From: a virus
Direction: 5' to 3' (one strand)
Virus record (IMG/VR): IMGVR_UViG_3300042691_019871
Span: 1-37,439 of that record
DNA length: 37,439 nt
The notes beneath the pieces were generated by a model that was not told where the DNA came from, searched no databases, and worked only from the letters and a program-made list of their open reading frames with translations. This document shows, piece after piece, positions 11,267-28,294 of the stretch; position 1 is the first letter of the stretch; the number at the start of each line of letters is the position of its first letter. The position numbers were made by a program, and so were the translations under genes.

Positions 11267-12010
11267 TTATTTAACAAGGGCTGGTGTGATATATTTAATA
11301 TCTATCGCATCATCATCTTTAACATTAAAGACAAAAACCTTATATTCCTCATTGAGTTTGACTATTATATTGCTGTTTTTAGTAAACATTAAGTGTTTGA
11401 ATATTTCTATATTAACAGGTATTGGATTTAATATACCAGAACCTACATAAGATTGAGATAATTTTATCTCGACACTATCATTATTATGTCTGGTTAGATC
11501 ATTTACTTCTGCAAAAATACTATCTTCATTTTGTTTAAAATATATTTTAGAAGAGTCAGGAGAGAATGCATAAGCAGACATTATTTGCCTTTGACATGAT
11601 AAAGGTATGATAAATTCTGTATCAAATTTAAGTTGAGATATTTTTTTAACACTAAATGTTGATTTACTCATCACACTATCGTCTGCTAAATGATATTTAA
11701 AATGAGTTTTTTCGTCTTTATTAGTAGAAATACATTTAAGAAAGTTTTCATGTATTTCTATTTCTACATTATCACTGTTCAAGCAATCTAAACCACACAA
11801 AAACCTTTTAATGTCAATTAAGTTTATTTTAACTGATGGACAAACATCAGTTATTTTTCCCTTTATATACAAAATAACTACATTATCTTGTGTAGAACTT
11901 ATTGAAGATATTTCATTATCTTCTATTTTTAGGATACAACTATCGGATAGTCTATTAATAGTTTTTAATATCTTTTCTAGAAAAGATTTTTCTAAACAAA
12001 CTTTATTCAT
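11267..12010 (-). CDS. 45: Sliding clamp, gp45-like
   Basis: A 247-residue protein with the layout of a T4-type DNA sliding clamp (T4 gp45 is 228 residues and trimeric). It has an N-terminal helix (FLEKILKTINRLSDSCILKI), alternating strands, a central linker near residues 110-130, and a second similar half with LSCQRQIMSAYAFSP and NPIPVNIEIFKHLMF. The start and end match the one-domain-twice pattern of gp45. The clamp tethers polymerase gp43 and, with gp33/gp55, activates late transcription. In T4, clamp-loader genes 44 and 62 follow 45; none is in this window. Sequence identity to known clamps is low, so the call rests on fold pattern, length and company of replication genes. Confidence 0.75.
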   Translation of the reverse strand: MNKVCLEKSFLEKILKTINRLSDSCILKIEDNEISSISSTQDNVVILYIKGKITDVCPSVKINLIDIKRFLCGLDCLNSDNVEIEIHENFLKCISTNKDEKTHFKYHLADDSVMSKSTFSVKKISQLKFDTEFIIPLSCQRQIMSAYAFSPDSSKIYFKQNEDSIFAEVNDLTRHNNDSVEIKLSQSYVGSGILNPIPVNIEIFKHLMFTKNSNIIVKLNEEYKVFVFNVKDDDAIDIKYITPALVK

Positions 12011-12016
12011 TATAAA

Positions 12017-12406
12017 TTATTTTTTTGTTAGGTTATGAAAAACTTTACCAAACATACCACATAATTTGGTAAGATTGTTATTTATTTTTTCAAGACTTAA
12101 CTTAATATCTACTATATCATTTTTAATAGATTCGTCAATACTAATTGCATTAGTAGAAATTTTTTCTATACCTGTGGGTGTATTAACTTCAAAAGGAATA
12201 GTATCGTTTTGTTGAATATTAATTGGATGACTATTTTCAGAATTATTACCTTTTGTCTTAATTTTTTCAACAAAAGTATTTAAATTTATTCTATCAGCTG
12301 GAATATCTGGTCTTGATTCCATTAATGAATCAATTGATCTCATTTTTCCTTTAACCATTCCAGCTAACATAGCTGCCTCCATATCTTCTTGTTGTTCAGG
12401 TGTCAT
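12017..12406 (-). CDS. Hypothetical protein, 129 residues
   Basis: Not recognised. It has an N-terminal amphipathic segment rich in M and E (MTPEQQEDMEAAMLAGMVKG), a disordered N/S/T/P-rich middle and a C-terminal coiled-coil-like helix (KNDIVDIKLSLEKINNNLTK) ending in basic residues. The start codon overlaps the stop of folE2 in an ATGA, implying translational coupling, and 6 bases separate it from the clamp. The two-part helical design with a flexible linker suggests an adaptor or structural role, but nothing in the sequence identifies a partner. Confidence 0.72.
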   Translation of the reverse strand: MTPEQQEDMEAAMLAGMVKGKMRSIDSLMESRPDIPADRINLNTFVEKIKTKGNNSENSHPINIQQNDTIPFEVNTPTGIEKISTNAISIDESIKNDIVDIKLSLEKINNNLTKLCGMFGKVFHNLTKK

Positions 12407-13227
12407 AATAAATGTCCAAAGTTAGTTTTTGCTTTGAATGTAAATGAATTAATACTTTCTTTCTGATTTAAAATAATAGAAAAATCATTTATACTCTTTT
12501 TGTTTATGTGTTTTTGTAGATTATTTTTAATTTTTTCACAGATTTCCTCTATAAAAAATGGATTTTCATACATCATTTCTGTTTGATATGCTTCATCCTG
12601 TAATGATGAAGAATTATATACGGGACAAGAGCATGATTTTTCTACTAAATCAACTATATCTTCAACCCAAAATGTTTTTTTCTCTAGAATATCCAATATT
12701 TCAACACTAATTTCAGCCATACATCTCTGATTATGTGCTCCATAATCAGATATCTCTTTAGAAACTGGACATAAAGAACTATATGGTATATTTGTTTTTA
12801 ATATGAATCTTGTTTTGTTTTCATCAAACACAGCTTCGATATATGATTCATACCTAGAAATTGATATTTTATTAGAAACTGGTGATTTTTTATTTAAAAA
12901 ATAATCAAAATTAACCCCTAAAATACCAGAGGTAGAGTTTAATTCATCTTTAAATGTATTAATATATAGTTTAACTAGTTCTTCAATAGAAGAAAATTTA
13001 TTTTCAAATAAAAAATCAGATATTCTATTAATATTAGAACCATTAATGTTAGAATTTAACTCTGAAAGAATTTTTATTTTACAACTACTAGAATTACTCG
13101 TATTATCTTTTCTTTTTATAGTTAACGGTAAAAAAACATCATCACACCCTATTAATATAGGGTGTGATGAGTGAGATACCTTTTTTTCTGTATAAAAAAT
13201 GTCGGTTTCTTCTTTTTTTATAGGCAT
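12403..13227 (-). CDS. folE2: GTP cyclohydrolase, FolE2 type (GCYH-IB)
   Basis: Converts GTP to 7,8-dihydroneopterin triphosphate, the entry step of both folate and 7-deazaguanine (preQ0/queuosine) pathways. I placed the start at the ATG at 13227 (MPIKKEETDIFY), 4 bases after the gp32 stop. The longer frame to 13371 overlaps gp32 by 140 bases and its extra N-terminus does not look like a FolE2. In this numbering the FolE2 active-site block is LCPVSKEISDYGAHNQR with C153 and H165, twelve residues apart as in characterised GCYH-IB, and the later block QTEMMYENPFFIEEI holds the conserved glutamates. Length (274) is normal for the family. No queD, queE, queC or transglycosylase is in this window. 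Host folate supply, pterin cofactors or modified guanine in phage DNA are all possible uses. Confidence 0.9.
   Translation of the reverse strand: MPIKKEETDIFYTEKKVSHSSHPILIGCDDVFLPLTIKRKDNTSNSSSCKIKILSELNSNINGSNINRISDFLFENKFSSIEELVKLYINTFKDELNSTSGILGVNFDYFLNKKSPVSNKISISRYESYIEAVFDENKTRFILKTNIPYSSLCPVSKEISDYGAHNQRCMAEISVEILDILEKKTFWVEDIVDLVEKSCSCPVYNSSSLQDEAYQTEMMYENPFFIEEICEKIKNNLQKHINKKSINDFSIILNQKESINSFTFKAKTNFGHLL
13139..13170 (-). terminator. Intragenic terminator-like hairpin in folE2
   Basis: A perfect 14-bp inverted repeat (13139-13152 and 13157-13170) with a 4-base loop lies inside folE2, 57 bases after its start codon. Read on the minus strand, the stem is followed by GATG and then seven T residues, close to an intrinsic terminator. 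It encodes the stretch around SHPILIGCDD, so coding constraint may explain part of it. It could end part of the gp32 transcripts early. This is inferred from structure only. Confidence 0.45.
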
Positions 13228-13231
13228 TTTA

Positions 13232-14110
13232 TTATAAATCCTTGAGGATTTCTTGAATCTTTGCGTCAGCATCATCAAAATCAGATGAGCTTTCACTAGG
13301 TTTGTTTGTATAAGCTGAACCAGCAAAGGTTTCAATTTCAACCATACTATCAATATTTTCAATTTCTTCATGAACTGGTTTTTGTGTACTTTGTTTCTCT
13401 CCTTTTTCCAAACCCAGGAAGTGGAAATTTAACATTTCTTCGATTTCATCATATGTCTTATGATTAAAGATAGAATCTAGTTGTTTAATACTAGAATAAA
13501 CATCATCTAGATTATCAAGACCATCTATTTTAGATGGAGACATAAATTTAGAGCTAACATATTCTGGATATCCTCCGGAATTTTGTTCAACTTTAATTTT
13601 AAAGCTACAACCCTTATCAGAAAGGTCAAAAACTCTAGACCCATATTCATCAGAATCATCACCAGTAATTGCATCGGTAATAATCTTATTAAGTTGACGA
13701 CCATATCTAAGAATTTTTACTTTTCCTTCATTTTCTGGGTTTGTTGGGTCTTTAATTACGAAAACATTAGCCAACCAAGATTCATTTCTTTTGATTGGTC
13801 TAGTTTTTTCGATTTCAGTTTCATTCTTGGTGCGATATACCCTAGAACGATATTCTTCGATGGGACATTTATCCCCATATGTAGTTGGACAAAGGAACGA
13901 AATCATGTTGTTTGATACAACACTCTTCCACATATGGTGATAATAATGAAAAAAGGTTCTATCTGGTGCTTCTAGATTTGGAAGTAGCCTTACAACATAG
14001 GTCTTACCAGTTTCCATCTTCATAAAGTCCTTAAAATTACTTTCTGTTGTGGTTTTTTTATTAAGTGCGTCCTTGATGGACTCGAATAGATTTGAAGTAT
14101 ATTTAGTCAT
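13232..14110 (-). CDS. 32: Single-stranded DNA-binding protein, gp32-like
   Basis: Binds ssDNA cooperatively at forks and during recombination. It has the gp32 plan: a basic N-terminal arm, an OB-type core from about residue 27 (KTYVVRLLPN), a zinc subdomain region (H55/H58/H59, C74, C82), aromatic core strands, and an acidic C-terminal tail (SSSDFDDADAKIQEILKDL) that contacts partners. Length 292 compares with 301 in T4. T4 gp32 binds zinc with H64, C77, C87 and C90; here CPIE occurs where CPIC would be expected, so one cysteine ligand seems missing. The start overlaps the previous gene by 8 bases, and GAAGG nine bases upstream is one of the few plausible Shine-Dalgarno sequences in the window. 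Confidence 0.93.
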   Translation of the reverse strand: MTKYTSNLFESIKDALNKKTTTESNFKDFMKMETGKTYVVRLLPNLEAPDRTFFHYYHHMWKSVVSNNMISFLCPTTYGDKCPIEEYRSRVYRTKNETEIEKTRPIKRNESWLANVFVIKDPTNPENEGKVKILRYGRQLNKIITDAITGDDSDEYGSRVFDLSDKGCSFKIKVEQNSGGYPEYVSSKFMSPSKIDGLDNLDDVYSSIKQLDSIFNHKTYDEIEEMLNFHFLGLEKGEKQSTQKPVHEEIENIDSMVEIETFAGSAYTNKPSESSSDFDDADAKIQEILKDL

Positions 14111-15987: not shown

Positions 15988-17373
15988 TTAGTCAACATCA
16001 TCACCTAAAGATTCAAGTAAACTCATGGTACTTGATATACTTGTTTCTTGTGATTTGTTGACTTTAGGAGTTGTTGAAACTACGAATGACGAAGATACTT
16101 CATCTGGATCTTTTAGAGTTAATGTCGGGTAATCTATCTCAAGAACAGTATGACAATCTCTAGGACCAAATCTATTTTTTGTAATTCCTAAATGAATTAT
16201 TCCTAATTCAACATCTTCTTTCTCTGTCCAAATAGAGAATTGAGCATCTGCTGTATGTGAAAGACCCATAGATTCACTAGTTGTCTCTAGACCGGGATTA
16301 ACTTCATTATATCCACTTCTATTGGTTTGTGTGGCTGTTATAACAGGACATTCAAATGCATAAGACATTGCTCTAACCATTTCTGTTATTTCTTTTACTG
16401 CGTCATATGATGACATTCCCTTCTCTGCTGGTGCTATAAGATTTAAATAATCTAAAACAATAACATCAGGTTTAATTCCAGATGATATTAATTTTTGTAT
16501 ATATGTTTTTATATGAGTTACTGAAACAGACTTTGGTGGAAATTCCTTTATTATAAGTTTCGAGTTTTTATGTTTAACTTTATATGAATTTAATTTTGTT
16601 TTAAGGAGAGGTATTTCTGTTGAAAGGTTATCCATAGAAATTTTTGATAACTGAGCACTTATTCTTTTAGCATAAACTTGCTCAGACATTTCCATAGAAA
16701 TCAATACAACGGTTTTATCTTGGTTTAGAATATTTGTTGCTATGTTACCCAAAAATATAGATTTTCCTACATTAGTAACACCATAAAATACATATAATGC
16801 TCGTCCAGTAGCCAGAAACCCACCACCTATTCTTTCATCCAGCCACTTCCATCCAGACGGAATATATTTAAATACTTTTTGTAATTCTGAACAATGTTCA
16901 TCTATTTTTTCCAAGTAATCAAATCCATTATTATCTATAAGAGAAATAGAACAAGCCTTTTCAAATGTTTTTAAAATTTCATATGTATCTATATCTCCAC
17001 TTTGAATGTTTAAAGATGTTTTTAAGACAGTATTAAAAACTGCTTTTTCTTTTAAAAATTTTTCTGTGTTATTTAAAAGAAATTCTTTGTCATATTTTTT
17101 ATCTATATCTGAAAAACTGCATAAAACCTCCTTTATACAATCTCTTTTATCTTTATCGGTTACAGTTATCTTTAATTCTGTAGAATTGGGTATCTTTTTG
17201 TGATTTCTATAAAAATCACAAAGTACAGATATAACAGTTTTATGTTTTTCATTAGAAAAATATGATGTATTTAAATATTCGTAAATAGTTTCAAAATAAG
17301 ATTGGTCTACAAAACAATTATAGACAATAACCTTTTCAAAAAGGTCGTAATCAAAATCTACAGATTTAGCCAT
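15988..17373 (-). CDS. 41: Replicative DNA helicase, gp41 (DnaB family)
   Basis: Hexameric 5'-3' fork helicase that also recruits primase. It has an N-terminal helical domain to about residue 150 and then a RecA-like motor: Walker A GVTNVGKS (198-205), VVLISMEMSE (about 222-231), Walker B VIVLDYLN (D308), and the ATQTNRSGYN motif, all typical of DnaB-type helicases. Length 461 compares with 475 for T4 gp41. The C-terminal end is acidic (SLLESLGDDVD). A strong sigma70-like promoter lies directly in front of the ATG and a terminator behind it, so gp41 begins a new transcription unit that probably runs on through the DHH gene toward gp32. Confidence 0.95.
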   Translation of the reverse strand: MAKSVDFDYDLFEKVIVYNCFVDQSYFETIYEYLNTSYFSNEKHKTVISVLCDFYRNHKKIPNSTELKITVTDKDKRDCIKEVLCSFSDIDKKYDKEFLLNNTEKFLKEKAVFNTVLKTSLNIQSGDIDTYEILKTFEKACSISLIDNNGFDYLEKIDEHCSELQKVFKYIPSGWKWLDERIGGGFLATGRALYVFYGVTNVGKSIFLGNIATNILNQDKTVVLISMEMSEQVYAKRISAQLSKISMDNLSTEIPLLKTKLNSYKVKHKNSKLIIKEFPPKSVSVTHIKTYIQKLISSGIKPDVIVLDYLNLIAPAEKGMSSYDAVKEITEMVRAMSYAFECPVITATQTNRSGYNEVNPGLETTSESMGLSHTADAQFSIWTEKEDVELGIIHLGITKNRFGPRDCHTVLEIDYPTLTLKDPDEVSSSFVVSTTPKVNKSQETSISSTMSLLESLGDDVD

Positions 17374-17379
17374 GTTGGT

Positions 17380-17408
17380 ATAGTATTTTATTTTACCTAT
17401 AAAGTCAA
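17380..17408 (-). promoter_or_regulatory. Sigma70-type promoter before gp41
   Basis: On the minus strand, TTGACT (17403-17408), a 17-base spacer and TACTAT (17380-17385). The -35 matches 5 of 6 consensus bases and the -10 matches 4 of 6, with optimal spacing. Only 6 bases separate the -10 from the ATG at 17373, which places the expected first base of the transcript on the start codon itself. Confidence 0.68.
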
Positions 17409-17411
17409 ATA

Positions 17412-17451
17412 AAAAAGGGTGGATGTTGACTAAACAACATCCACCCTTTTT
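17412..17451 (-). terminator. Intrinsic terminator after uvsX (symmetrical)
   Basis: A perfect 17-bp stem (17412-17428 with 17435-17451) with a 6-base loop; the GC-rich core GGGTGGATGTTG is flanked by A and T runs. It lies just past the uvsX stop and before the gp41 promoter. A/T runs on both sides mean it could stop transcription from either direction. Confidence 0.9.
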
Positions 17452-17462
17452 GCTTTTTCAAT

Positions 17463-18608
17463 TTATTCGTTCAATAGAACCTGCTCCGACTTCGGTGATA
17501 AAACACTTGACTCGTTTTTAAATGTAAGTTGTGTTTTTAATTTTTCTTCCAATTTTGGTAAAATTTTGGATTCCCAAATAGAATCATCATCTTTCCAATC
17601 TTTATAAAACCCTAAAATTTCTTCACCAACTGCATATCTATGTCCTTGCTTGTGAATAATTCCATAACCTTCAGCCATCTCAAGTAAACCAGAATACTTT
17701 GATAATCCTGTTCTAAAGTTAAGATACATTTCACATTCCAAAAAAGGCGGGACAAACCTGTTTTTGGTTGTTAATGCTCTCATAGTTAATCCGTTTACAT
17801 CTTTAGAGAGAGGAGTTACATCATCAAGCGCATTTTTATTATCAGATTTACCTACACGCTCTTGTTTGGTTGACATTTGAACAAGAACAGAAGACATATA
17901 TAGAGGACCAGAGCCTCCAGATTGGCTTTTTATTAATGTAGGATATAAAGCACCAGGGTTATCGTAAATGTGGTTAGTAAAAACTACTGGACAATTAGCT
18001 TTTGCTGCTGCGTGTGTTATAGCTCTTAACATAGACTTCAAGGAAACTGCTCTAGCACCCATGTCTGCACTATCTTTTCCATCTTCTATTATTTTTGCTT
18101 CTCTAGCAGAAATTAAATTCCCTAAAGAATCTATAGCCAACATAACTTTCCCTTGAAGACCTTTTTCAATGATAGTTTTCAAAAATTTAACAATTTGATT
18201 TCTACACTCTTCAATAACTTCAATTGGACAATGTTTTATTTTTTTTGGATCACATCCTAAATTAATGGCAGTATCTGGATCTAATGCATTTTCTGTATCA
18301 AAATAAACTACATGCATCCCCTTTTTTTGAGCATTTGCCATAATTTTATTGACCATCAATGTTTTTCCACAGGCTTGAGGACCAGCAAATCCTGTTATTC
18401 TTCCCATAGGTATTCCACCATATAAAGATCCAGATATAATTGCATTAAGGGCCATACATCCAGTATCAAGCCATTCCTTTACAGTTGATAATGTATTCTC
18501 ATTTAAAAATGCCGCATCAGGATTTAAATCATCTAATACTTTAAATGCATCTTCAATTACATCATTGTTTTCTTGTGTTTCTGCTGTTTCTTTTTGTTTT
18601 TTAGCCAT
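17463..18608 (-). CDS. uvsX: Recombinase UvsX (RecA/Rad51 family)
   Basis: Forms filaments on ssDNA and does strand exchange in recombination-dependent replication and repair, loaded by UvsY. It has Walker A GPQACGKT (76-83), Walker B VMLAIDSLGN (D160), and a DNA-binding loop region after QSGGSGPLYMSS (about 230-245); the glutamate in DTENALD (about 104-110) matches the RecA-type catalytic position. Length 381 compares with 391 in T4. The N-terminal 30 residues are acidic and polar, and the C-terminus is short and acidic. It has its own promoter and is followed by a terminator, so it appears to be a single-gene transcription unit. Confidence 0.96.
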   Translation of the reverse strand: MAKKQKETAETQENNDVIEDAFKVLDDLNPDAAFLNENTLSTVKEWLDTGCMALNAIISGSLYGGIPMGRITGFAGPQACGKTLMVNKIMANAQKKGMHVVYFDTENALDPDTAINLGCDPKKIKHCPIEVIEECRNQIVKFLKTIIEKGLQGKVMLAIDSLGNLISAREAKIIEDGKDSADMGARAVSLKSMLRAITHAAAKANCPVVFTNHIYDNPGALYPTLIKSQSGGSGPLYMSSVLVQMSTKQERVGKSDNKNALDDVTPLSKDVNGLTMRALTTKNRFVPPFLECEMYLNFRTGLSKYSGLLEMAEGYGIIHKQGHRYAVGEEILGFYKDWKDDDSIWESKILPKLEEKLKTQLTFKNESSVLSPKSEQVLLNE

Positions 18609-18646: not shown

Positions 18647-18652
18647 CAAAAT

Positions 18653-18682
18653 AAAAAACCTCGACCGAAATCGAGGTTTTTT
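18653..18682 (-). terminator. Intrinsic terminator after the 128-residue gene
   Basis: A perfect 12-bp stem (18653-18664 with 18671-18682), GC core CCTCGA/TCGAGG, 6-base loop, with T-rich sequence on the minus-strand exit side. It lies 27 bases beyond the stop at 18710 and closes the gp43-side transcription unit before the uvsX promoter. Its A/T flanks also allow function on the plus strand. Confidence 0.9.
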
Positions 18683-18709
18683 ATTTTTACTTTTTATATG
18701 TCAACTATT

Positions 18710-19096
18710 CTATTCATCAAACAATTTAACCACATTTGGAGAATTATTATCAGAAGATTCACCTAGATTAGTATTTGGGATGTACAGATTGTTCTTATTA
18801 AAGATTTGCGAATATTGTGCTTGTAGTCTAAAATCTAAAGCATCAATATTGATCATGGTAATCAAATCTTTCTTAAATGTAAAAGAAGTATCTGCTTCTT
18901 TTTCTGCTAGGAATTCTCTAAAAAACAACGGAAATAATTGAATAGACATTCTATTATCTTGTGTTGGTACAGTAGATAAAACTACTGGGTTAACAACAAC
19001 TAAGTTTTTTTCATCCTCTGATGAAAGTTCGCCTACAATTGTTCTTCCGACATAATCCAAGAATACGGTTAGTTTATTTTTTTGTGTTTCGCTCAT
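18710..19096 (-). CDS. Conserved small T4-like phage protein, possibly Sm-like
   Basis: A 128-residue protein lying between uvsX and the DNA polymerase gene. The first half (KLTVFLDYVGRTIVGELSSE, then LVVVNPVVLSTVP, then SIQLFPLFFREFL) has the strand pattern of an Sm/LSm-like beta barrel, a fold often used for RNA binding; this is a by-eye impression. The second half is helical and ends in a polar, acidic tail (SPNVVKLFDE). I recall similar small proteins at the same place in cyanophage-type T4-like genomes, without a known function. It is followed by a terminator and preceded by a weaker promoter that overlaps the gp43 stop. Confidence 0.8.
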   Translation of the reverse strand: MSETQKNKLTVFLDYVGRTIVGELSSEDEKNLVVVNPVVLSTVPTQDNRMSIQLFPLFFREFLAEKEADTSFTFKKDLITMINIDALDFRLQAQYSQIFNKNNLYIPNTNLGESSDNNSPNVVKLFDE

Positions 19097-19108
19097 ATTA
19101 GACTTAAT

Positions 19109-19136
19109 AATTTACATTAATAAAAATAAAAATCAA
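19109..19136 (-). promoter_or_regulatory. Possible promoter before the 128-residue gene
   Basis: On the minus strand, TTGATT (19131-19136), a 16-base spacer and TAAATT (19109-19114), then 12 bases to the ATG. The -35 contains the TGA stop codon of gp43. The -10 is weaker than in the neighbouring promoters, so this is a lower-confidence call supported mainly by the repeated arrangement. Confidence 0.45.
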
Positions 19137-21724
19137 CTATTATTTTCATCATCATCCGAAAATAATTTAGAAAGATCTATTGTATAATTGCATTTAAGAG
19201 AAGGAGAACTCCAACCAATACAGTTATAAATTCTTTCTAATGGAGGAAATACAGTTTTATTAAACATTTTTTCATAATCAGGTTTAATATCTAGACTAAA
19301 TTCATTAGGAAATGTTTCATTAAATGAAATAATTCCTATGTTGTATTTGTTCTTACAAACATAAAATGTTTTTATTTTATTTCCGTTTGATATTTTTTCG
19401 TAAACATTTTGAATATTATATTCTTGTAATAATTTATTATAATAAATTGATGCTTTTACATGAGAGGGAGTTCCTTTTGGTGTACTAAATCCTTTAGTTT
19501 TAATTTCATATTTCTCCATATCATTAACCTTTTTTCTAACGGATATAAATGAAACATCCATATTCATAAATTCCTTATAAGAATCCATGAATATTTTATC
19601 AGACTCTTCTTTATTTCCTGATAAAATAACGGACTCCACTACATTTTTGATTAATGTTTTAACTTCGTTAGACATTATAGATTTTGCCAATTCCACACCT
19701 TTATAGATAAATGGATTTTTTGGTTTATACCCTTCTTTATCTATTACATGAAGTATATACATTTTCTTTTCTAAGAAAAGACCTTTATCACATATAGTTT
19801 CTCTTTTAAACACAAATCTAGGATCAATAGAATTATGTTTTTTATTTGACCACACTATTATCTCTTTATTTAATTTGTCATCTATTTTTTGAATTATCTC
19901 TTTCGAGATATCAGTTAATTCACCATTATTATCCAATAATTTAGAATTATAATGTTTTAATAAAGGTTCTATTGTTAAGAAAAGACTGTCAGTATCTGAG
20001 TATATGTATATATCTTTTTTTTCACAAATATATCCACTATCTTTAACATATTCATATGCTATATCAGATGCTTTTTTAATTACAGATTGACCTGTTAAGG
20101 TAACACTCGCGGAATGATCAATATCGTATAATGGAGAAAATCTTTGTGCAAATGTTCCATAAATAGAATTCAAAACTAATTTATAAACATTCTGTTCTGT
20201 GTCTAAATCTTGAATTTTTTGAAGTTCTTTGTTCTTTACATCTATGTCTTTTATATTTTTTAAATTCTTTTGAATTTCTGATATTTTATTTTTTGTTTTT
20301 ACTCGTTCGGTATATAATTTATCAATAAAAGCAGGTACAACACCTTTGAATTTTTGAGTATATAGAACATCATAATCAGATACACAAATTTTTTCTTTTT
20401 GTATAAATCTTTCAAATTTTTCTTTTTGTAAAGAAATAGTTTTTCCATTTATCAATTCTATGAAAAAGTTATCATTTTCTTTAGATATTATTTTTCCTAG
20501 TTTTGTTTCTGGTGAAATATTTAATGAGATAATAGTATTAGGATAAAGACTGTTTGCATCATAACTGACTAGTGACTCTCTAAGACCTCGTTCCGGTTCA
20601 TGAACATATCCACCAACATATTCTTTTTTTTCATTCTCTGATTTAAATGTAGGTATCATCTTTCCTTGAAGTAATGCTTCGTGTGCTATTGCGCCTGTAA
20701 TCATTGATACCTTTCCTGTTGCTTTTTCAAAAGGAATAAACCCTTTATAAGATAAAATTCTAACCAAGTTAAGATACTTTAAGGTTTCATCCAATTTAAC
20801 AAGAAGCCTAACATCTTGTATATTATATTTTACAAACAAATCCCAATCTGATTTTGATAATGATGCTAAATTACCAGACCCGAAATCTATTTTTCCTTCC
20901 TTTAGTTCCTTTTCAGCTATATAATTTAAACTATATGACTCAGAATCTCCTCTGGAAAATGCTTTATAGATTATCATATAATCCAAATTTGAAATACCTG
21001 ATATATACCATTTATCATAAGGTTTGTTATATTTGTTTATAACAACCCCCTCTCGTTTATAAACATTTTTTATTGGAGATAATCTTAAATAATCTTCATC
21101 ACCCATCAAATTCTTAATTCGATTTATTAAGTATGGAACATCGAACGTTTCAGAATTCCATCCACACATAATATCTGGTGGATTTTCTTCCCAAAAAGAC
21201 AAAAATTTATTTAATAACGAATATTCATCATCACAATGAATATATATTTCGTTATTATTTTTAGATTTAAACTTATCTAATCCCCAACTAAAATATTTTT
21301 TAGTTAGAGTATCATACAATGTAATAAGATTTATGGTGTCTTTTGCCTCTGATGGTTCTGGAAATTGATCAGGACTGTATGTTTCTATATCCCAAAAATA
21401 TATTCTTAATGGAAAAGAAGAATAATCTATAGTTTTTTTATCTTCTCTAAAAGTGTTTATTAAAAAGTCTTGTTCTATGTTTAAATTTTGAAACAATCTT
21501 TTAATAGGTGTTTCATTGACAAATTTATTTCTATAAAAATTGTTTTTAAATGTTATTTTTTTTAAGTTTGTATTAAAAATAGAAAGTGCATCAGAATGAG
21601 ATGCACTTTCCACATACAAACTAGGTTCGTAACTTGTCTCTACCTTTAGTCTTTCACCATATTCATCCCATGTCCATAGATGAATTACTCCTTTATTGTT
21701 ATCGTATGCTATGTTTCTATACAT
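19133..21724 (-). CDS. 43: DNA polymerase, family B, gp43-like
   Basis: Replicative polymerase with proofreading. Exo I is FWDIETYS with D112 and E114, the same numbers as in T4 gp43, which supports this start. Exo II is GWNSETFDVPYL (D195) and Exo III is YNIQDVRLL (D304). Polymerase motif A is SYDANSLYPN (D389), motif B is KLVLNSIYG (about 515-523) and motif C is YSDTDSLF (D577, D579). The C-terminus has a short hydrophobic stretch LSKLF, in the place where gp43 binds the clamp. Length 863 compares with 898. All catalytic acids are present. A good promoter abuts its start codon, and its TGA lies within the -35 of the next gene. Confidence 0.98.
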   Translation of the reverse strand: MYRNIAYDNNKGVIHLWTWDEYGERLKVETSYEPSLYVESASHSDALSIFNTNLKKITFKNNFYRNKFVNETPIKRLFQNLNIEQDFLINTFREDKKTIDYSSFPLRIYFWDIETYSPDQFPEPSEAKDTINLITLYDTLTKKYFSWGLDKFKSKNNNEIYIHCDDEYSLLNKFLSFWEENPPDIMCGWNSETFDVPYLINRIKNLMGDEDYLRLSPIKNVYKREGVVINKYNKPYDKWYISGISNLDYMIIYKAFSRGDSESYSLNYIAEKELKEGKIDFGSGNLASLSKSDWDLFVKYNIQDVRLLVKLDETLKYLNLVRILSYKGFIPFEKATGKVSMITGAIAHEALLQGKMIPTFKSENEKKEYVGGYVHEPERGLRESLVSYDANSLYPNTIISLNISPETKLGKIISKENDNFFIELINGKTISLQKEKFERFIQKEKICVSDYDVLYTQKFKGVVPAFIDKLYTERVKTKNKISEIQKNLKNIKDIDVKNKELQKIQDLDTEQNVYKLVLNSIYGTFAQRFSPLYDIDHSASVTLTGQSVIKKASDIAYEYVKDSGYICEKKDIYIYSDTDSLFLTIEPLLKHYNSKLLDNNGELTDISKEIIQKIDDKLNKEIIVWSNKKHNSIDPRFVFKRETICDKGLFLEKKMYILHVIDKEGYKPKNPFIYKGVELAKSIMSNEVKTLIKNVVESVILSGNKEESDKIFMDSYKEFMNMDVSFISVRKKVNDMEKYEIKTKGFSTPKGTPSHVKASIYYNKLLQEYNIQNVYEKISNGNKIKTFYVCKNKYNIGIISFNETFPNEFSLDIKPDYEKMFNKTVFPPLERIYNCIGWSSPSLKCNYTIDLSKLFSDDDENNS

Positions 21725-21732
21725 TTAGAGAA

Positions 21733-21761
21733 ATCATAGCACACGATACATGTTTAATCAA
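21733..21761 (-). promoter_or_regulatory. Sigma70-type promoter before gp43
   Basis: On the minus strand, TTGATT (21756-21761), a 17-base spacer and TATGAT (21733-21738), then 8 bases to the ATG, giving an expected leader of about 2 bases. The -35 contains the TGA stop (21758-21760) of the glycosyltransferase gene upstream. Confidence 0.75.
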
Positions 21762-23071
21762 GACTTTTGATCAGGGTTTAAACTAATAAGATCTGGATAT
21801 TTTTCATTCCTCTCCTTAGACCCCCAAGCAGTCAAATAAAGTCCGTGATATAGGTCTATGTGATCTTCCAACCACATTGTTTCAGCATATTGTCTTGCTT
21901 TTTTTGATTCTTTCATGTATCTATCACAATCTGATGTTAGATGTTCTAACATATTGATTAAATCAGAACCTTTTTTAAATTTGTTATCAGACATTTCATA
22001 TGTACATAGGTCTTGATATGTCCCAGGCAATCCTAATGCACCAGCTTCTATCATTTTAATATTACTTTTTGATTTATTGAAAATATTATCAACCAAAGGA
22101 GCAAATGTAACATTGCTATTGGTTTTAACTATATCCTGTGGATAATTTGGTAATGAGGACCATTCTACATATTCCATTTCACCATTATCAATGAAAGGTT
22201 TAAGTGCTAGTGGGTAGCAACCCTTCCAAACAAACTTAAATTTCTTTCTAGCCTTTATAATTTCATCTATAACATGATGAAAATCATCCTTCATTCCTGT
22301 CCTGTTTAGGACATCTATATGTGTACCAGAACCAGAATAAAGAACTCTAGGTCGTTTCTTGTTTTTTTCAAAATTCTTTAAAATAATATCTTCATTATAA
22401 AATCTATCCAACCAGAATTTAGGTGCATAATTTGGAATAACTGTTATATTCTTATTTCCTGTTTTATGGATATAATAATCTTTCATAAACTGACATGTAA
22501 CTGTCATTTCATCCATCATTCCAATAATATCCAATATATTTTTAACTATTTTATCATCATTAAAAGCATCTTTGCATCTATTATAATCTGGAATGTCTTC
22601 TCTGAAGACAATATCATCAACTTCATACAATAATCTAAGCCCAAAATCTTTCTTAACTTTGTTTAATTCTTTTATAAACATCAATTGATGCTCTGTTGCT
22701 TGTCTTTGAAACCTAACGGCTTTTATATTTTGATAAAATCTAAGATCCAGAATCATTTGTGTCATTCCAGAACAAATTGCTTTTTGATAAAAATTTAAAA
22801 GAAACTCTGGCCATATCATTCTCCAGAATCCACAACCACCATAATCAGCATAATAATTTAATACTCTAGGTAAATTTGCTTCTGGCATTTCTACTGGTGG
22901 TGGTGCTGGAATATTTATTGGTTTTAATGCAATGTAAAAAATATTTAATAAATTTTCATGAGTACCAACTGGAGGATTTGGAATAGAGTATTTAATTGCA
23001 CTAAATCCATATGTTACTCTTTTTTTGTCTGTGATTTCTGTAGGTTCTGATTTTTTAATTTTTAAAGCCAT
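21758..23071 (-). CDS. Glycosyltransferase, GT-B / GT4-like
   Basis: A 437-residue protein with the plan of a GT-B glycosyltransferase. A proline-rich N-terminus is followed by a first domain (VLNYYADYGGCGFWRMIWPE, about residues 70-89, and LLYEVDDIVF, about 146-155), then a linker ITVIPNYAPKF, then a C-terminal nucleotide-sugar domain beginning RVLYSGSGTH and ending IKMIEAGALGLPGTYQ, the usual place for the E-x7-E-like motif of GT4. Acceptor and donor are unknown. Similar genes lie near gp43/gp46 in marine T4-like phages as far as I recall. It is separated from the main glycan island by gp46 and has its own promoter. Confidence 0.8.
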   Translation of the reverse strand: MALKIKKSEPTEITDKKRVTYGFSAIKYSIPNPPVGTHENLLNIFYIALKPINIPAPPPVEMPEANLPRVLNYYADYGGCGFWRMIWPEFLLNFYQKAICSGMTQMILDLRFYQNIKAVRFQRQATEHQLMFIKELNKVKKDFGLRLLYEVDDIVFREDIPDYNRCKDAFNDDKIVKNILDIIGMMDEMTVTCQFMKDYYIHKTGNKNITVIPNYAPKFWLDRFYNEDIILKNFEKNKKRPRVLYSGSGTHIDVLNRTGMKDDFHHVIDEIIKARKKFKFVWKGCYPLALKPFIDNGEMEYVEWSSLPNYPQDIVKTNSNVTFAPLVDNIFNKSKSNIKMIEAGALGLPGTYQDLCTYEMSDNKFKKGSDLINMLEHLTSDCDRYMKESKKARQYAETMWLEDHIDLYHGLYLTAWGSKERNEKYPDLISLNPDQKS

Positions 23072-23082
23072 AATTTTTATTA

Positions 23083-23111
23083 AGTATAATGTAGTTGATT
23101 AGATAAATCAA
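23083..23111 (-). promoter_or_regulatory. Sigma70-type promoter with dyad at -35
   Basis: On the minus strand, TTGATT (23106-23111), a 17-base spacer and TATACT (23083-23088), then 11 bases to the ATG at 23071. The -35 contains the TGA stop of gp46. A 7-bp inverted repeat GTTGATT-N5-AATCAAC (23094-23112) covers the -35 and could be an operator or a short hairpin. Confidence 0.72.
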
Positions 23112-24913
23112 CACTTTAATTTAGTTTTCCCATTAAGTTTTTCCAGTTCTATAATATTATCTATGTTGTTTTTTGTAACATTTGAATTATGAGATATAAT
23201 ATATATTGATTCTTTATATTTTTCTGAATTTTCTTTTAAAATATCTATAACATTAGAAGTTCCTATGTCATCTAATGCAGAATCAAATAATTCATCATAT
23301 ATATTAATGGAATAAAATATTCCTGTCTGTGTTTTTAATATATCTTGGAATGTGAATAATATAGCTAAGTCAATTCTTTTTCTTTCACCACCACTAAAAT
23401 TAAAATATGAACATTCTTTATTGTTTTCATTAATAATAATCTCGTCAAATGTCTCATCAAAATTACAAGTACATGGTGCTTCCAGTCTTTTAAGATAAAA
23501 ATTTAACTTATTATTTAATACTATTAAAAGTTTCTTTATAATATATGTTTTAACACCTTCCTCAGAGACAATAAGTTTAGAATTGTCTAAAATATTAAGT
23601 TGTTTTTGCTCATCTGAAATATTTTTTTCCAAATCTGATACATCTATTAAAATCTCATCAATTTTATCAGATGTATAATCCTTTTCTTCTATAATTTCCT
23701 GTATATTTTGTAATAATTCTTTGTTTTTATCTTCTAATGTAGAATTTTCTCGTAATAAAGAATCTAAATTATTGTTTTTTACTATTAATGTTTTATTAAT
23801 ATTGTTTAATTCTGATTTTTTATTTAAAATTTGTGTTTTAATTTTATTAATCTCGTGTCTTTTTGAAGATACTTTATTAAATTCATCGTTTTTTGTATCT
23901 TTTTGCAAAGATAACTCTTTTATATGTTCTTCTAACGAAGAATCATCCTCTTCTGTTAATTTTTTCTTACAAGTTGGACAAATTCCTGTTTTATTTTTAA
24001 ATGAATTTATTTGTTTTTCTATATTCTGTCTTTCTGTGTGCAAAATTGCTTCTTTTTTAGATATTTCTAATATAGAATCCTCTGTTTTTTTTATTTTTTC
24101 TTCTAATTTTTGTATTGCTTCCTCTGTTTTATTGATTGAGTCTAATACCTTTGTTTTAGATTCTAATAATTTATTATTCTCGTTATTCTTTAGTTTTTCT
24201 TCGTTTTGATTTATTTTAGTATTTAAATTTTGTATTTTTTGTTTTTTTAACTCTTCGTTTTTTTCTTTTTGTTCTTTTAAAATACTTAATGTCTTGTGTT
24301 TTTCTGAAAATTTAGTTCCTAATACTTGAAAGTTTTTATTTTTCTCATTAAAATCTTGTCTAACTTTAGATAACATATCACTAAAGATATTAATCTGAAG
24401 TATGCTTTCAATAAATTTTCTTTTTTCTATTTTTTTCTGAGCCATGAATGGCAATGTATTATCTAACGACATTACTATAGAGTTTCTAAATAACTCTTCA
24501 TTTGCTCCTAGAAGTTCTTTTATAGCTTCATCTGTTTTCTGAATAGTAGAATATGTTGTATCTTGGTTCATTCTGTATAGATGAACCTTGCTTGGATTTA
24601 ATGTTCTTTCTATTTTATAATTTATGATTTCATTATTAATACCTTGAATATCAAACTCAAGTTCAACCAAGCACTCTTCCCTTGATTGATTATGTACTAT
24701 TTTCTCCTTTTTAATATCTCTTATAGTATTACCGAATATAACCCAGTAAAAAGCATCTATTATGGTTGTTTTACCACAACCATTTTTACTGTTTTTATCT
24801 TTGTTCAATCCTGTTATTAAAGATATTCCGTTTTGAAAATTTAAAATCAACGAATCTTCCCCTACCGATAGAAAATTTTTAATTAATATTTTTTTAAAAT
24901 TAACTTTTTTCAT
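23108..24913 (-). CDS. 46: Recombination endonuclease subunit gp46 (Rad50/SbcC-like)
   Basis: ATPase partner of gp47, processing DNA ends for recombination. The N-terminal half-ATPase has the Walker A NGCGKTT (44-50). Two long coiled coils (about 185-310 and 325-445) flank a zinc hook CPTC (312-315). The C-terminal half has the ABC signature NFSGGERKR (505-513) and Walker B YDELFDSALD with D540/E541. Length 601 is somewhat longer than T4 gp46 (560). The ATG lies directly after the stop of the FkbM gene with no gap. In T4 the partner gene 47 is the immediate upstream neighbour; here it is over 9 kb upstream, with the glycan island in between. Confidence 0.96.
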   Translation of the reverse strand: MKKVNFKKILIKNFLSVGEDSLILNFQNGISLITGLNKDKNSKNGCGKTTIIDAFYWVIFGNTIRDIKKEKIVHNQSREECLVELEFDIQGINNEIINYKIERTLNPSKVHLYRMNQDTTYSTIQKTDEAIKELLGANEELFRNSIVMSLDNTLPFMAQKKIEKRKFIESILQINIFSDMLSKVRQDFNEKNKNFQVLGTKFSEKHKTLSILKEQKEKNEELKKQKIQNLNTKINQNEEKLKNNENNKLLESKTKVLDSINKTEEAIQKLEEKIKKTEDSILEISKKEAILHTERQNIEKQINSFKNKTGICPTCKKKLTEEDDSSLEEHIKELSLQKDTKNDEFNKVSSKRHEINKIKTQILNKKSELNNINKTLIVKNNNLDSLLRENSTLEDKNKELLQNIQEIIEEKDYTSDKIDEILIDVSDLEKNISDEQKQLNILDNSKLIVSEEGVKTYIIKKLLIVLNNKLNFYLKRLEAPCTCNFDETFDEIIINENNKECSYFNFSGGERKRIDLAILFTFQDILKTQTGIFYSINIYDELFDSALDDIGTSNVIDILKENSEKYKESIYIISHNSNVTKNNIDNIIELEKLNGKTKLKC

Positions 24914-25534
24914 TTAAATATGTTTAATGTAAAAGGCATCTCCCCAAGTTACACCTTCCCAATTTGTATCTGTTCTTTTAAAACCAAAATTAATCAAAAA
25001 ATTATCTAAATCTGATACTAAACAGCAATTCTCATACAATTCTTTATTATTCACTTCCGTTAAAATATAATTTATATGTTTTAATGTTTTAATTGCACCC
25101 TTTAAAACCTCTAACTCAAACCCCTGAACATCCATATTCAAAAACTTAAATTCTTCCCCAAAGCAATAAGAATCTAATGGCTTTATGTCTACTTCTGTAG
25201 TTTTAGTAAAAACTATATTGGGATATTGTAATGTATGTATTTTTGGCTTTAGTAAAGAATTGCTTTGCCCTTCATTAGATGTTTCGCAATATAATTTTAA
25301 TTTATTTTCACACGAACCTATTCCAACATTATGACAATTTACATCCGTAAATTCTAAAGATTTTTTCTTTAAAACTTTAAATGTTTCTGGATGTGGTTCG
25401 AATATTTCAATTTTAACAGATGGGAATATATTTTTATATTGATCAATTTCTTTACCAAAATGGCCACCAACATGGATAATTCCGTCCGTTTTAATATTAT
25501 ATTTGTTTTTTAAAGTTAGAAGATCAAGTAACAT
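24914..25534 (-). CDS. FkbM-family SAM methyltransferase
   Basis: A 206-residue class I methyltransferase. The SAM-binding region reads GIIHVGGHFGKEIDQY (about residues 18-33) with the acidic end IEIFEPHPETF on strand 2, and the FkbM signature FKFLNMDVQGFELEVLKGA lies at about 130-148. FkbM enzymes O-methylate sugars or similar hydroxyls in glycans and secondary metabolites. It is the last gene of the glycan island before gp46, and has its own strong promoter with a perfect TATAAT, so it and gp46 can be expressed apart from the rest of the island. It probably methylates a sugar made or attached by the neighbouring enzymes. Confidence 0.88.
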   Translation of the reverse strand: MLLDLLTLKNKYNIKTDGIIHVGGHFGKEIDQYKNIFPSVKIEIFEPHPETFKVLKKKSLEFTDVNCHNVGIGSCENKLKLYCETSNEGQSNSLLKPKIHTLQYPNIVFTKTTEVDIKPLDSYCFGEEFKFLNMDVQGFELEVLKGAIKTLKHINYILTEVNNKELYENCCLVSDLDNFLINFGFKRTDTNWEGVTWGDAFYIKHI

Positions 25535-25542
25535 TTAAAAAA

Positions 25543-25570
25543 ATTATAACCTTTTTTAAAATAAAATCAA
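25543..25570 (-). promoter_or_regulatory. Sigma70-type promoter before the FkbM gene and gp46
   Basis: On the minus strand, TTGATT (25565-25570), a 16-base spacer and a perfect TATAAT (25543-25548), then 8 bases to the ATG at 25534. The -35 contains the TGA stop (25567-25569) of the GT11 gene. This is the only promoter seen inside the island and would drive the FkbM gene and gp46. Confidence 0.8.
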
Positions 25571-26316
25571 ACTTTTATTTTAATCATATTTGAGGTATAA
25601 ATTTCGTCTAATTTATCTGTTTTATTCCATATATCTGGTGCTAAAATTAATTTATCCTTACCAAAAAAACTTCCCCACCACCCAAAAGTACTATTAGAAA
25701 TTATACAAGCATCACTTTGACTCATTAGTTTTAAATCATCAATTTCAGATAGATTATAATATTGTATATTAAAATTATCAGGAAGAAAATTTTTAGCTAA
25801 ATGATAATAATCTGTTATTAAATAAAATTTTATATCATTAAAACTACTCAACACATAATCTATACTATATTTTATATATTCTTTTGTTATTACATTAAAA
25901 TTACTGTAATAAGGATGCAAATAATCACCTGTTCTTATTTGAATTGTACATATTTTTGTTTTTTTATCCTTTAATTTAACAGAATCAAAATTGAATAATG
26001 TATTAAGTTCATTTTTATACTTTTCTATATGTTTTGCTTTTTGAAAAAACCCATCTAGTAATATATCTTTTTGATCTATTTGCTTTTCTATATCAAATTT
26101 TGATTCTTCTATAATATATGAAGGTATAATATCTGTTTCTTGTATATTTTGAAATATATTATTTTTATAAAATGATAGAGGATTTCCTTGTCCTCTTCCT
26201 TTATCCAATTTATAGTTTATTTTATAATCTGTATTATTATGTTTAGAAAAAACATACCCTGAAGCTATTTGAAATAATAAATTTCCTAAACCTCCTTGAT
26301 AAATACTAGTTACCAT
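25567..26316 (-). CDS. Glycosyltransferase family 11 (alpha-1,2-fucosyltransferase type)
   Basis: A 249-residue GT11 enzyme. The three family motifs are visible: GGLGNLLFQIA at the N-terminus (8-18), IQIRTGDY (125-132; the family usually has HxRRGDY) and ISNSTFGWWGSFFG (206-219). Family members move fucose from GDP-fucose to galactose or similar acceptors. The histidine of the HxRRGDY motif is replaced by glutamine and one arginine by threonine, so specificity may differ. It lies at the downstream end of the overlapping island operon, 1 base after the preceding stop. Confidence 0.88.
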   Translation of the reverse strand: MVTSIYQGGLGNLLFQIASGYVFSKHNNTDYKINYKLDKGRGQGNPLSFYKNNIFQNIQETDIIPSYIIEESKFDIEKQIDQKDILLDGFFQKAKHIEKYKNELNTLFNFDSVKLKDKKTKICTIQIRTGDYLHPYYSNFNVITKEYIKYSIDYVLSSFNDIKFYLITDYYHLAKNFLPDNFNIQYYNLSEIDDLKLMSQSDACIISNSTFGWWGSFFGKDKLILAPDIWNKTDKLDEIYTSNMIKIKV

Positions 26317-26317
26317 A

Positions 26318-26959
26318 CTACCCTTTCAAAAATGGTATATTGTTTGAACACATAGTATCTTCATATGTTAATTGAGGTAGCCAAAAAACATTTTCCGTAG
26401 GTATGGTATCAACAAAATTTGAAAATGCTTTTTCTATAATATTGGAATTATCAGATATTTTTAAATCACTAAAAAAACATTTAAATTTTTGTATGTTACA
26501 ACCAAAGAACACAGTTAATATGTTATTTTCATTATGTTTTAAACTGTTTACAGATAAAAATTTATTAGTATCTATTGTTTTTATAAAATGATAGATATCA
26601 GGAGAGTAATATCTTCCAGAAATTTTATAAAAAAATGATTCATTTTTTAATAACGTTGAATTGTTTAGTGCATATATAATAGAATCTCTTTCTCCATGAC
26701 CTTTTCCATATATATTAACGTTACTATTACCCTTATATGAAATAAATTCTATTCTATTATCAAAAACATCACAAATATCATTAAATAATTCTTTTACGCT
26801 TTCTATCGAGTTATCAATAAAAATTAATTTTAAATCTGTTTCTTTTAGATATCTATTTAATGTTTTTTTATAATCTAATAACCGTGTGTTGAAATCTTTT
26901 CTATTTAAATTAAAACAATTTCCTACATCAATAGTAGATGTTAACAATAATTTATTCAT
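26318..26959 (-). CDS. Putative glycosyltransferase-like protein (KISGRY motif)
   Basis: A 213-residue protein that resembles sugar-transfer or capsule-related proteins more than any other family I know. It has an early strand LKLIFIDNSIES, then GKGHGERDSIIYALNN (about residues 84-99) followed by FYKISGRYYSPD, a pattern seen in some small bacterial glycosyltransferases that read a donor-binding GxGHGE..L segment and a KxSGRY segment. It ends with a FWLPQLTYEDTMC segment. The donor and acceptor are unknown. Its start overlaps the stop of the RmlD-like gene by 8 bases, so translation is probably coupled. Confidence 0.55.
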   Translation of the reverse strand: MNKLLLTSTIDVGNCFNLNRKDFNTRLLDYKKTLNRYLKETDLKLIFIDNSIESVKELFNDICDVFDNRIEFISYKGNSNVNIYGKGHGERDSIIYALNNSTLLKNESFFYKISGRYYSPDIYHFIKTIDTNKFLSVNSLKHNENNILTVFFGCNIQKFKCFFSDLKISDNSNIIEKAFSNFVDTIPTENVFWLPQLTYEDTMCSNNIPFLKG

Positions 26960-27743: not shown

Positions 27744-28294
27744 AGATATATTAGTTGTTTATTTTGTGGCATCTTTTTTACCAAAGTAAGACCTGGATTA
27801 AACGGTAGTGTTAATATTTCAAATCTTGTATATAAATTTTGTTTTATATACAAAGCTGTCTTATAACAATCATTACACAACTCTGGTTTAAATAAATAAG
27901 AATCGAATGGATATGTATCATGTAATATAATAAATCCATCATCTATTAAATGCTTTTCTGCATTTAAAAAATCTTTTAAAGATTGTTCATGAGAATGATC
28001 GGCATCTATAAAAATTAAGTCATATTTCTCATCAGGTGAAATTTTCTCAAAAAACTCATCAGTTGTTGTTTCTAAATAAACTGAATTATTTGGAATAACA
28101 AATTGTGGGTTTGCAATATCAACGCCTGTTGCCTTACTACATAATGGAGATACTTTTTTAAAGGTCTTTCCACATCTAACACCTAATTCTAGATAATTCT
28201 CAGGTCTTATATAAGATGCTAGATTTTCTATAAATGAAGAATGATCAAATGTTTCTTCTGGTGGCGGTACGTTTCTTAAATGTATTGGTTTCAT
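27740..28294 (-). CDS. Class I SAM methyltransferase (Methyltransf_24 type)
   Basis: A 184-residue protein with a clear methyltransferase core: SAM-binding YLELGVRCGKTF (about residues 34-45), acidic loop KATGVDIANP (about 54-63), LIFIDADHSHEQ (about 93-104) and DDGFIILHDTYP. This IDADHSHE..L-D plus HDTYP pattern matches the Methyltransf_24 / CmcI-like group, often found in sugar and natural-product clusters. A second member of the group is encoded at 32168. Start and stop overlap the neighbours by 4 bases on each side. Substrate unknown; a modified sugar is the simplest guess. Confidence 0.82.
   Translation of the reverse strand: MKPIHLRNVPPPEETFDHSSFIENLASYIRPENYLELGVRCGKTFKKVSPLCSKATGVDIANPQFVIPNNSVYLETTTDEFFEKISPDEKYDLIFIDADHSHEQSLKDFLNAEKHLIDDGFIILHDTYPFDSYLFKPELCNDCYKTALYIKQNLYTRFEILTLPFNPGLTLVKKMPQNKQLIYL

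Follow-up and report, generated by a model that had tools for sequence, protein, structure and literature searches.

We analysed a stretch of viral DNA of 37,439 bases (positions 1-37,439 of IMG/VR record IMGVR_UViG_3300042691_019871; hereafter, the window), a fragment of a phage genome in which an open reading frame (ORF) for a homologue of FolE2, GTP cyclohydrolase IB, directly follows the gene for the single-stranded DNA-binding protein gp32. Matches to T4 terminase, gp32, gp41-like helicase, UvsX, gp43-like polymerase, gp46, gp47, late sigma factor and UvsW identify the window as part of a T4-like phage. The folE2 gene and its immediate neighbours are arranged as follows:

13232..14110, minus strand: gp32 single-stranded DNA-binding protein (PF08804, E = 1.2e-19)
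12403..13227, minus strand: folE2 homologue, 274 amino acids (aa), ATG at 13227, assigned by Pfam, by sequence relatives in the PDB and by the fold of an AlphaFold2 (AF2) model
12017..12406, minus strand: small conserved gene, 129 aa, no Pfam match, 3' of folE2
11267..12010, minus strand: sliding clamp with a PCNA fold (AF2 model), second gene downstream of folE2

The ORF at 12403-13227 is a FolE2 homologue. It matches the Pfam family GCHY-1/FolE2 (PF02649) with 151 bits against a cut-off of 25 (E = 5.7e-44), its sequence relatives in the PDB are three FolE2 only (2r5r, E = 2.8e-31; 3d2o, E = 1.7e-26; 8g6c, E = 6e-26), and its AF2 model (predicted local distance difference test score, pLDDT, 87) has the FolE2 tunnel fold, matching 3d2o in Foldseek with E = 2.9e-19 and template modelling scores of 0.79/0.88. 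No PHROG family matches the gene. It is separated from the upstream gp32 gene by 4 nt (13228-13231), and its stop shares a 4-nt overlap with the small gene. The identity of the clamp is shown by its fold only: Pfam and PHROG searches with 11267-12010 gave no match and an hhalign comparison with T4 gp45 was negative, while its AF2 model (pLDDT 86.5) matches PCNA (Foldseek E = 3.7e-13), on the basis of which we call it a sliding clamp. An earlier note on this DNA, made from the letters alone, had read the locus as FolE2 lying four bases behind gp32 and leading into a small gene and the clamp, and this layout was borne out in full; the note left the minus strand unmentioned and overlooked a Val in place of the second Cys of the CPCSK motif.

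To see how widely the gene occurs, we compared loci or rows (L numbers) and larger phage records (G numbers; G004 is L092, and G002 includes L240, L249 and L250). The sets comprised the best 80 of 161 loci from a gp32 search of IMG/VR, the best 80 of 82 relatives found among 152 stretches with a phage FolE2 profile, and the best 80 of at least 540 relatives for the nearest bacterial FolE2. A folE2 match was present in 17 of the best 80 gp32 loci (L005-L020 and L075). In 84 of 88 viral FolE2 rows, a set that includes duplicate contigs, a same-strand gp32 match precedes folE2 at a distance of 374 nt or less; L148, L149, L150 and L152 lack one. The spacing between the gp32 stop and folE2 is 4 nt in all 22 loci counted in the clade of the window, as in the window itself. 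GenBank phages, searched as 50,697 records, yielded just three folE2 matches, at 28-29% identity and in unannotated records. Two further arrangements were observed. In L020 (1305-2111), the gene that follows a gp32 relative encodes another FolE2 subtype, whose HNQR loop carries an insertion as in the copies on Sulfitobacter and Paracoccus plasmids. G025 (L149, L281) and G026 (L150, L280) encode FolE2, QueD, QueC and a radical-SAM protein, and G025 also has a TGT-like match.

Altered residues and selection on FolE2

A tree of gp32, uvsX and helicase (40 rows, unrooted) groups nine rows as the window clade with support of 100/100. L153 and L155 form a separate branch, also at 100/100, which is sister to the queD-bearing L136 and L147. 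We number residues as in 3d2o, counted from the alignment of the window protein to that structure. In the window, the second Cys of the CPCSK motif, Cys149, is replaced by Val (V155), K197-R198 by S208-L209 and H246 by N260. Cys147, His159, Glu201, Glu216 and Glu243, the metal and base-pocket positions, are kept as C153, H165, E212, E227 and E257.

Over the 88 viral rows, the Cys149 position holds Cys in 63, Ala in 13, Thr in 5, Val in 4 and Arg in 3; it is Val, Ala or Thr throughout the window clade, and the three rows with Arg lie outside it. For comparison, we took the 80 nearest bacterial rows and 25 others (22 found with the Pfam profile in 149 genomes and 3 from named plasmids); the two sets share two genes (L192/L339 and L216/L333), so that 103 of the 105 rows are distinct. 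Cys149 is Cys in 80/80 of the nearest rows (of at least 540) and in 25/25 of the others; the Arg of the GTxMSR motif, like K197, R198 and H246, is universal in both sets. Ten aligned rows of the window clade have Asn, Glu or Ser for K197, Leu for R198 (10/10) and Asn for H246 (10/10). The GTxMSR motif is mostly lost there, its Arg position being Lys in eight rows, Arg in one and Gly in one, and the window itself keeps the Arg. In L153-L155, C149R is accompanied by loss of K197-R198 and of the GTxMSR Arg, with H246 kept. The positions of Cys147, His159 and Glu216 are conserved in 88/88 viral rows and that of Glu243 in 86/88, with gaps in the other two.

Cys149 is reported to be essential for catalysis in gonococcal FolE2, and GTxMSR, K197 and R198 probably hold the triphosphate. 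The earlier note had taken C153, H165 and a YENP.F.E block as signs of an active enzyme. These features are present, but the replacement of Cys149 by Val, Ala or Thr across the clade, together with the loss of K197, R198 and H246, makes an active enzyme doubtful, and the window FolE2 probably no longer makes dihydroneopterin triphosphate. On the gp32-uvsX-helicase tree, the disarmed state takes two changes.

The gene has nevertheless remained under constraint. The ORF is complete, at 269-278 aa, in the window and in 11 of the 12 clade loci examined; in the remaining one, L002, the contig ends within the gene. Pairwise ratios of nonsynonymous to synonymous substitution rates (dN/dS) for folE2 are 0.08-0.29 in eight window-clade pairs versus 0.005-0.039 in seven pairs of phages with Cys149, and 0.083 and 0.096 in two L153-L155 pairs; gp32 gives 0.026-0.174 across all 17 pairs. 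The window-clade values remain 0.075-0.285 when the first 40 codons are removed, which indicates that constraint on folE2 is relaxed, not absent. Together, these values show that FolE2 of the window clade is under purifying selection that is weaker than in its sisters.

Pathway partners in sisters and empty slots in the window clade

All five fully fetched sister phages (G004-G008) encode FolE2 of the Cys149 type, QueD, QueE, QueC, a GATase-like protein and a DpdA-like protein. Judged by these matches, the sisters hold nearly the set known from dG+ phages, with FolE2 as the predicted first enzyme. Of 25 larger records, 14 have a QueD match and 9 a QueC match, and QueE was found in 5/5 of G004-G008 when QueE proteins of two other phage records were used as queries. 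The Radical-SAM Pfam model is a poor detector of QueE, with matches in 4 of the 25 records and in none of G002-G008. In the QueE proteins of G004-G008, which that model misses, an insertion separates the second Cys of the radical-SAM motif from the third. In G005-G008, queD lies between uvsX and the helicase gene and queE between gp46 and a gene for 437 aa, and in G004 queD and queE are adjacent to each other outside those replication slots. The DpdA-like gene sits between the polymerase gene and a gene for 128 aa in all five sisters, and in G005-G008 a thyX-like gene is found there as well. We call the protein DpdA-like because of its gene context and an annotated homologue in Flavobacterium phage immuto ('DNA guanine transglycosylase'), its best GenBank phage match (39%, E = 2e-41); the Pfam TGT (tRNA-guanine transglycosylase) and NCBIfam DpdA models gave no match to it, and a search of solved structures no TGT match. 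The GATase-like homologues adjoin queC or lie one gene off in 5/5 sisters, with GATase_6 above its cut-off only in G005 (29.1 versus 27 bits), weak in G004, G007 and G008 and absent from G006. We also observed that the QueD encoded between uvsX and helicase (QueD2; L094, L106, L136 and others) has HGY versus HGH in QueD1 of G004 and G005 and no clear first His, so that its metal site looks unusual at what we take to be the zinc-ligand positions.

In the window, the three places that hold queD, dpdA and queE in most sisters are bounded by the same genes and are empty:

15988..17373, minus strand: DnaB-like replicative helicase, flanking the queD slot
17374..17462, minus strand: empty queD slot, 89 nt, between uvsX and the DnaB-like helicase gene, where sisters G005-G008 have queD; holds a 17-bp terminator-like hairpin (17412-17451)
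17463..18608, minus strand: UvsX recombinase, flanking the queD slot
18710..19096, minus strand: conserved gene for 128 aa, no Pfam match, flanking the dpdA slot
19097..19132, minus strand: empty dpdA slot, 36 nt, between the DNA polymerase gene and the 128-aa gene
19133..21724, minus strand: DNA polymerase (gp43-like), flanking the dpdA slot
21758..23071, minus strand: gene for 437 aa, PHROG glycosyltransferase match, no Pfam match, flanking the queE slot
23072..23107, minus strand: empty queE slot, 36 nt, between gp46 (SbcC-like) and the 437-aa gene, where sisters G005-G008 have queE
23108..24913, minus strand: gp46/SbcC-like subunit, flanking the queE slot

The partner genes are gone in the window clade. 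QueD and QueC were found in 0/6 window-clade records (G002, G003 and G013-G016) and QueE in 0/2 of those fully fetched (G002 and G003). G002, with 210,586 bases, is collinear with the window and has, of the pathway genes, only folE2. Six-frame searches of G002 and G003 (130 kb) with the sister QueC, QueD, QueE, DpdA-like and GATase-like profiles gave no match with the E-value limit set at 10, and both folE2 copies were recovered with the FolE2 profile; Pfam TGT, NCBIfam DpdA and the sister DpdA-like profile likewise had no match in these two records. Of 80 G005 proteins common to G004, G006 and G007 (blastp E<=1e-4), G002 keeps 70 and G003 68. The ten absent from G002 are QueC, QueD, QueE, the GATase-like and DpdA-like proteins, a metallophosphoesterase, an AAA ATPase, an HNH protein, a zinc-ribbon protein and one without a match. 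In the window phage itself, the absence of queC is inferred from these relatives.

Slot occupancy follows the state of Cys149. We scored slots in a set of 82 rows, the window and 81 loci, wherever the genes on either side could be seen, leaving out L002, L007-L010, L013, L014 and L019, which are the same contigs as L005 and L085-L091, and L001, L003 and L004, which are the window itself or the L002 contig. queD occupies its slot in 0/14 rows without Cys149 versus 14/34 with it, and the DpdA-like gene occupies the polymerase slot in 0/11 versus 17/20; queE is in its slot in 0/10 rows, every one of them without Cys149. Of the 20 Cys149 rows that have no queD in the slot, L092, L093, L098 and L107 carry it elsewhere in the record. 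In the second disarmed lineage (C149R, L153-L155), for which the absence of partners is taken from fragments of 74 and 52 kb and from empty slots, L155 has thyX (Thy1, E = 5.6e-50) and no dpdA in the polymerase slot. By these comparisons, queD, dpdA and Cys149 appear to have been lost there independently. The earlier note had linked folE2 to 7-deazaguanine DNA, and the link holds for the lineage, in which sisters have these partner genes with folE2 in the same place; in the window clade the partners are gone. Its suggestion that the remaining pathway might lie elsewhere in the genome found no backing: searches for queD, queE, queC, GATase-like and dpdA-like genes gave none in G002 or G003, and the queD, dpdA and queE slots of the window are empty. 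On its other two suggestions, partners taken from the host and pterins used directly by the phage, the results speak neither for nor against.

Other features of these genomes were seen in passing. Between gp46 and gp47, the window has an island (24914-34335) with glycosyltransferase, methyltransferase and nucleotide-sugar epimerase matches and many genes that have no match in the relatives compared. G002 (L249, L250) encodes a guanosine monophosphate (GMP) reductase together with an adenylosuccinate synthetase of the PurA type, a pair that could convert guanine nucleotides to adenine nucleotides in this AT-rich phage; GuaC-like proteins occur also in G004 and G005 and a PurA-like one in G007. 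We considered 2-aminoadenine (Z) DNA in G002 and rejected it: the synthetase scores 97 bits against a PurZ cut-off of 300 and has the WGDEGKGK motif, whose Asp is presumably catalytic. The protein is also under the PurA cut-offs (270 versus 402), and motif and scores point to PurA rather than PurZ. G002 (L240, L249, L250) further has a transfer-messenger RNA and tRNAs that include Tyr-GTA, Asp-GTC and Asn-GTT, three queuosine-taking anticodons.

An RNA hairpin within folE2

The start of the window folE2 contains a further element:

13139..13170, minus strand: RNA hairpin with an uninterrupted 14-bp stem in the folE2 coding sequence (nt 58-89), followed by a U-rich tract

A stem of 13-16 bp (uninterrupted, G-U allowed) lies at about nt 58-94 of the folE2 coding sequence in 16/16 window-clade rows (15 loci and the window). 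Over the same stretch of 57 Cys149 rows, the longest stem has a median of 6 bp, with the two highest values in L141 (12) and L144 (10), and it measures 7-10 bp in the three C149R rows; this comparison leaves out L020, L148, L149, L150 and L152, and L142 is also missing from it. Fold z-scores are -5.6 to -7.6 in seven clade members versus 0.15 in the single sister tested, L106. Over ten rows, both sides have changed in 6 of the 14 pairs, a number reached by 6/500 shuffles, and 95.7% of cells pair with a covariation score of 0.406, neither of which is reached in any of 500 shuffles. Structures slid along the alignment pair in 33-49% of cells, versus 95.7% for the hairpin. Of 2000 random synonymous recodings made for each row, 40-109 attain the stem observed; since the rows are related, these counts are not independent of each other. 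An Rfam search of the window gave no match. Together, these data show that the hairpin is conserved and covarying in the window clade; it was not seen in the sisters.

A second embedded hairpin (21579-21613, minus strand; 14 bp and a U-run), at the 5' end of the polymerase gene, was set aside, as G002 and G003 have no comparable stem there. Across the window, terminator-like sites number 15 versus 3.1 expected by chance, and promoter-like sites, at 91 versus 110, are not above expectation. Strong two-way terminator-like hairpins of 17-18 bp stand on both sides of uvsX (17412-17451 and 18648-18687), and a promoter-like match at 17408 lies by the first of these, in the empty queD slot.

Interpretation and known systems

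Guided by these results, we favour, at a probability of roughly 60%, a reading in which the window folE2 is left over from a DNA-modification pathway that was lost, its product has probably ceased to be a GTP cyclohydrolase, and the gene has been kept for another role in the gp32 operon and has acquired an RNA hairpin. We suggest that ancestors of the window phage carried a complete 7-deazaguanine pathway (probably dG+/preQ0), partly spread through the replication operon, with folE2 after gp32, dpdA after the polymerase gene and queC and the GATase-like gene elsewhere; in the nearer sisters, queD lies between uvsX and the helicase gene and queE beside gp46. The window clade has lost the partners and keeps folE2 intact in its place, with replacement of residues that all the bacterial FolE2 examined share. 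What is retained could be a protein of the tunnel fold whose kept Cys147, His159, Glu201, Glu216 and Glu243 positions continue to bind a metal and possibly a ligand resembling guanine or pterin, or one that binds a partner in replication. At some 60 nt into folE2, the hairpin may terminate, attenuate or stabilise the gp32 mRNA, which would raise the output of gp32 above that of folE2, the small gene and the clamp.

Several observations weigh against this reading or parts of it. L119, L139 and L145 keep Cys149 although the DpdA-like gene is missing from its slot. The window record is a 37-kb fragment, and queC and the GATase-like gene are called absent on the strength of relatives that are possibly incomplete. 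Glu201, one of the metal-ligand positions, is itself Lys in 4/88 viral rows. As for the hairpin, further pair types are not above shuffles (276/500), and a run of at least five U follows the stem in just 8/16 rows, so that the word terminator does not apply generally. Its arms also encode the clade-fixed residues H22, G27 and C28, which for that reason give no evidence for a new protein function. C28 as a substitute for Cys149 was rejected on the same ground, since its codon lies in a hairpin arm and constraint at the RNA level explains its conservation equally well.

Other histories of the gene have to be weighed against the relic that we favour. A metal site and base pocket turned to another purine or pterin nucleotide would fit the conserved metal and base-pocket positions alongside change at Cys149 and at the putative triphosphate positions, the changes of R198 to Leu and H246 to Asn fixed in 10/10 aligned clade members, and purifying selection beyond the hairpin codons. 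Such a repurposed enzyme is unlikely, however: no candidate partner enzyme was found, only four ORFs of at least 60 aa occurring in both G002 and G003 and in none of the five sisters (blastp E<=1e-4), and other lost positions (155, 64, 207 and 208) differ among clade members in a way that resembles relaxation. We regard as distinctly unlikely that the protein is still a GTP cyclohydrolase feeding the host QueD/QueE/QueC or a folate pathway, for example for ThyX-dependent thymidylate (dTMP) synthesis. The kept positions of Cys147, His159, Glu201, Glu216 and Glu243, the unchanged fold, the persisting purifying selection and the ThyX encoded by G002 (Thy1, E = 9.7e-50) would fit an active enzyme, but Cys149, K197, R198 and H246, present in 80/80 and 25/25 bacterial rows, are all replaced in the clade, and dN/dS is several-fold higher in lineages without partner genes.

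That same several-fold excess over the Cys149 phages, with a covarying hairpin in the first codons, might instead mean slow decay, in which selection acts only on the RNA hairpin and operon spacing and the remaining ORF is on its way out. We give this little weight, given complete ORFs of 269-278 aa in the window and 11/12 clade loci, dN/dS of 0.075-0.285, well below 1, past the first 40 codons, and values of 0.083 and 0.096 in the two pairs of the second lineage. Most improbable of all is that the window clade lacked the pathway from the start and the sisters acquired it gene by gene. Parsimony on the unrooted replisome tree counts three changes in the queD slot, gains or losses alike, and the QueD gene tree (L104 left out) is poorly resolved, both of which leave room for gains; yet phages with a filled dpdA slot occur to either side of the deepest split drawn (L092, L098, L105, L107 and L115 on one, L094, L106, L130 and L136 on the other), which makes losses in the two disarmed lineages simpler, and G004, on the far side, has FolE2, QueD, QueE, QueC and the GATase-like and DpdA-like proteins.

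More generally, though somewhat short of even odds, T4-like phages may have kept and disarmed the first enzyme of this pathway at least twice, arriving at a non-catalytic or differently acting tunnel-fold protein, with the gene start in the window clade becoming an RNA element that controls the gp32 mRNA. The disarming would have taken two routes, from Cys149 to Val, Ala or Thr with loss of K197, R198 and H246, and from Cys149 to Arg with loss of K197 and R198. A lone phage folE is easily taken for an active auxiliary metabolic or folate gene, and its presence can mislead; here the empty slots of the partners and the replaced residues reveal the loss of the pathway. The phages compared thus offer a natural before-and-after series of the loss of a DNA modification, a possible phage pseudoenzyme adjoining gp32, and a covarying RNA hairpin within a coding sequence that is open to testing by synonymous changes. 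They also have FolE2 standing in for FolE in phage deazaguanine pathways, a replacement that seems to have occurred in more than one phage group.

Searches for FolE2 in phages or viruses in a Creative Commons-licensed collection, judged by titles and the openings of abstracts, showed no report of a FolE2-based phage deazaguanine pathway, a scope that mostly excludes subscription journals. A 2026 survey includes folE2 in its list of viral genes (PMC13288924). FolE singletons were set aside by Hutinet 2019, the main text of which has no occurrence of FolE2 (PMC6884629). Compared with known GTP cyclohydrolase IB (PF02649; 3d2o and 5k95, Neisseria gonorrhoeae), the window protein is alike in profile, in fold and in Cys147/His159/Glu201/Glu216/Glu243; it differs in the loss of Cys149, K197, R198 and H246, in a clade where GTxMSR is mostly lost and no QueD or other partner was found. 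The Far-T4 phages of freshwater lakes (Roux 2015, PMC4360716) share the T4-like core, and GTP cyclohydrolase and queuosine genes are reported for them; by their published description, on which our comparison is based, they differ in having the Que genes in the structural module. Flavobacterium phage immuto, whose annotated DpdA is the best GenBank phage match of the sister protein, has a queD-queE-folE-dpdA-queF region, and differs in its annotated family A polymerase, in genes that lie near each other and in an annotated FolE rather than FolE2. Set beside the phage 7-deazaguanine systems of 9g, nt-1 and CAjan, as they are presented in Hutinet 2019 (PMC6884629), the sisters share the functional set but use FolE2 instead of FolE and have the genes partly interleaved in the replication operon, and the window clade retains FolE2 alone.

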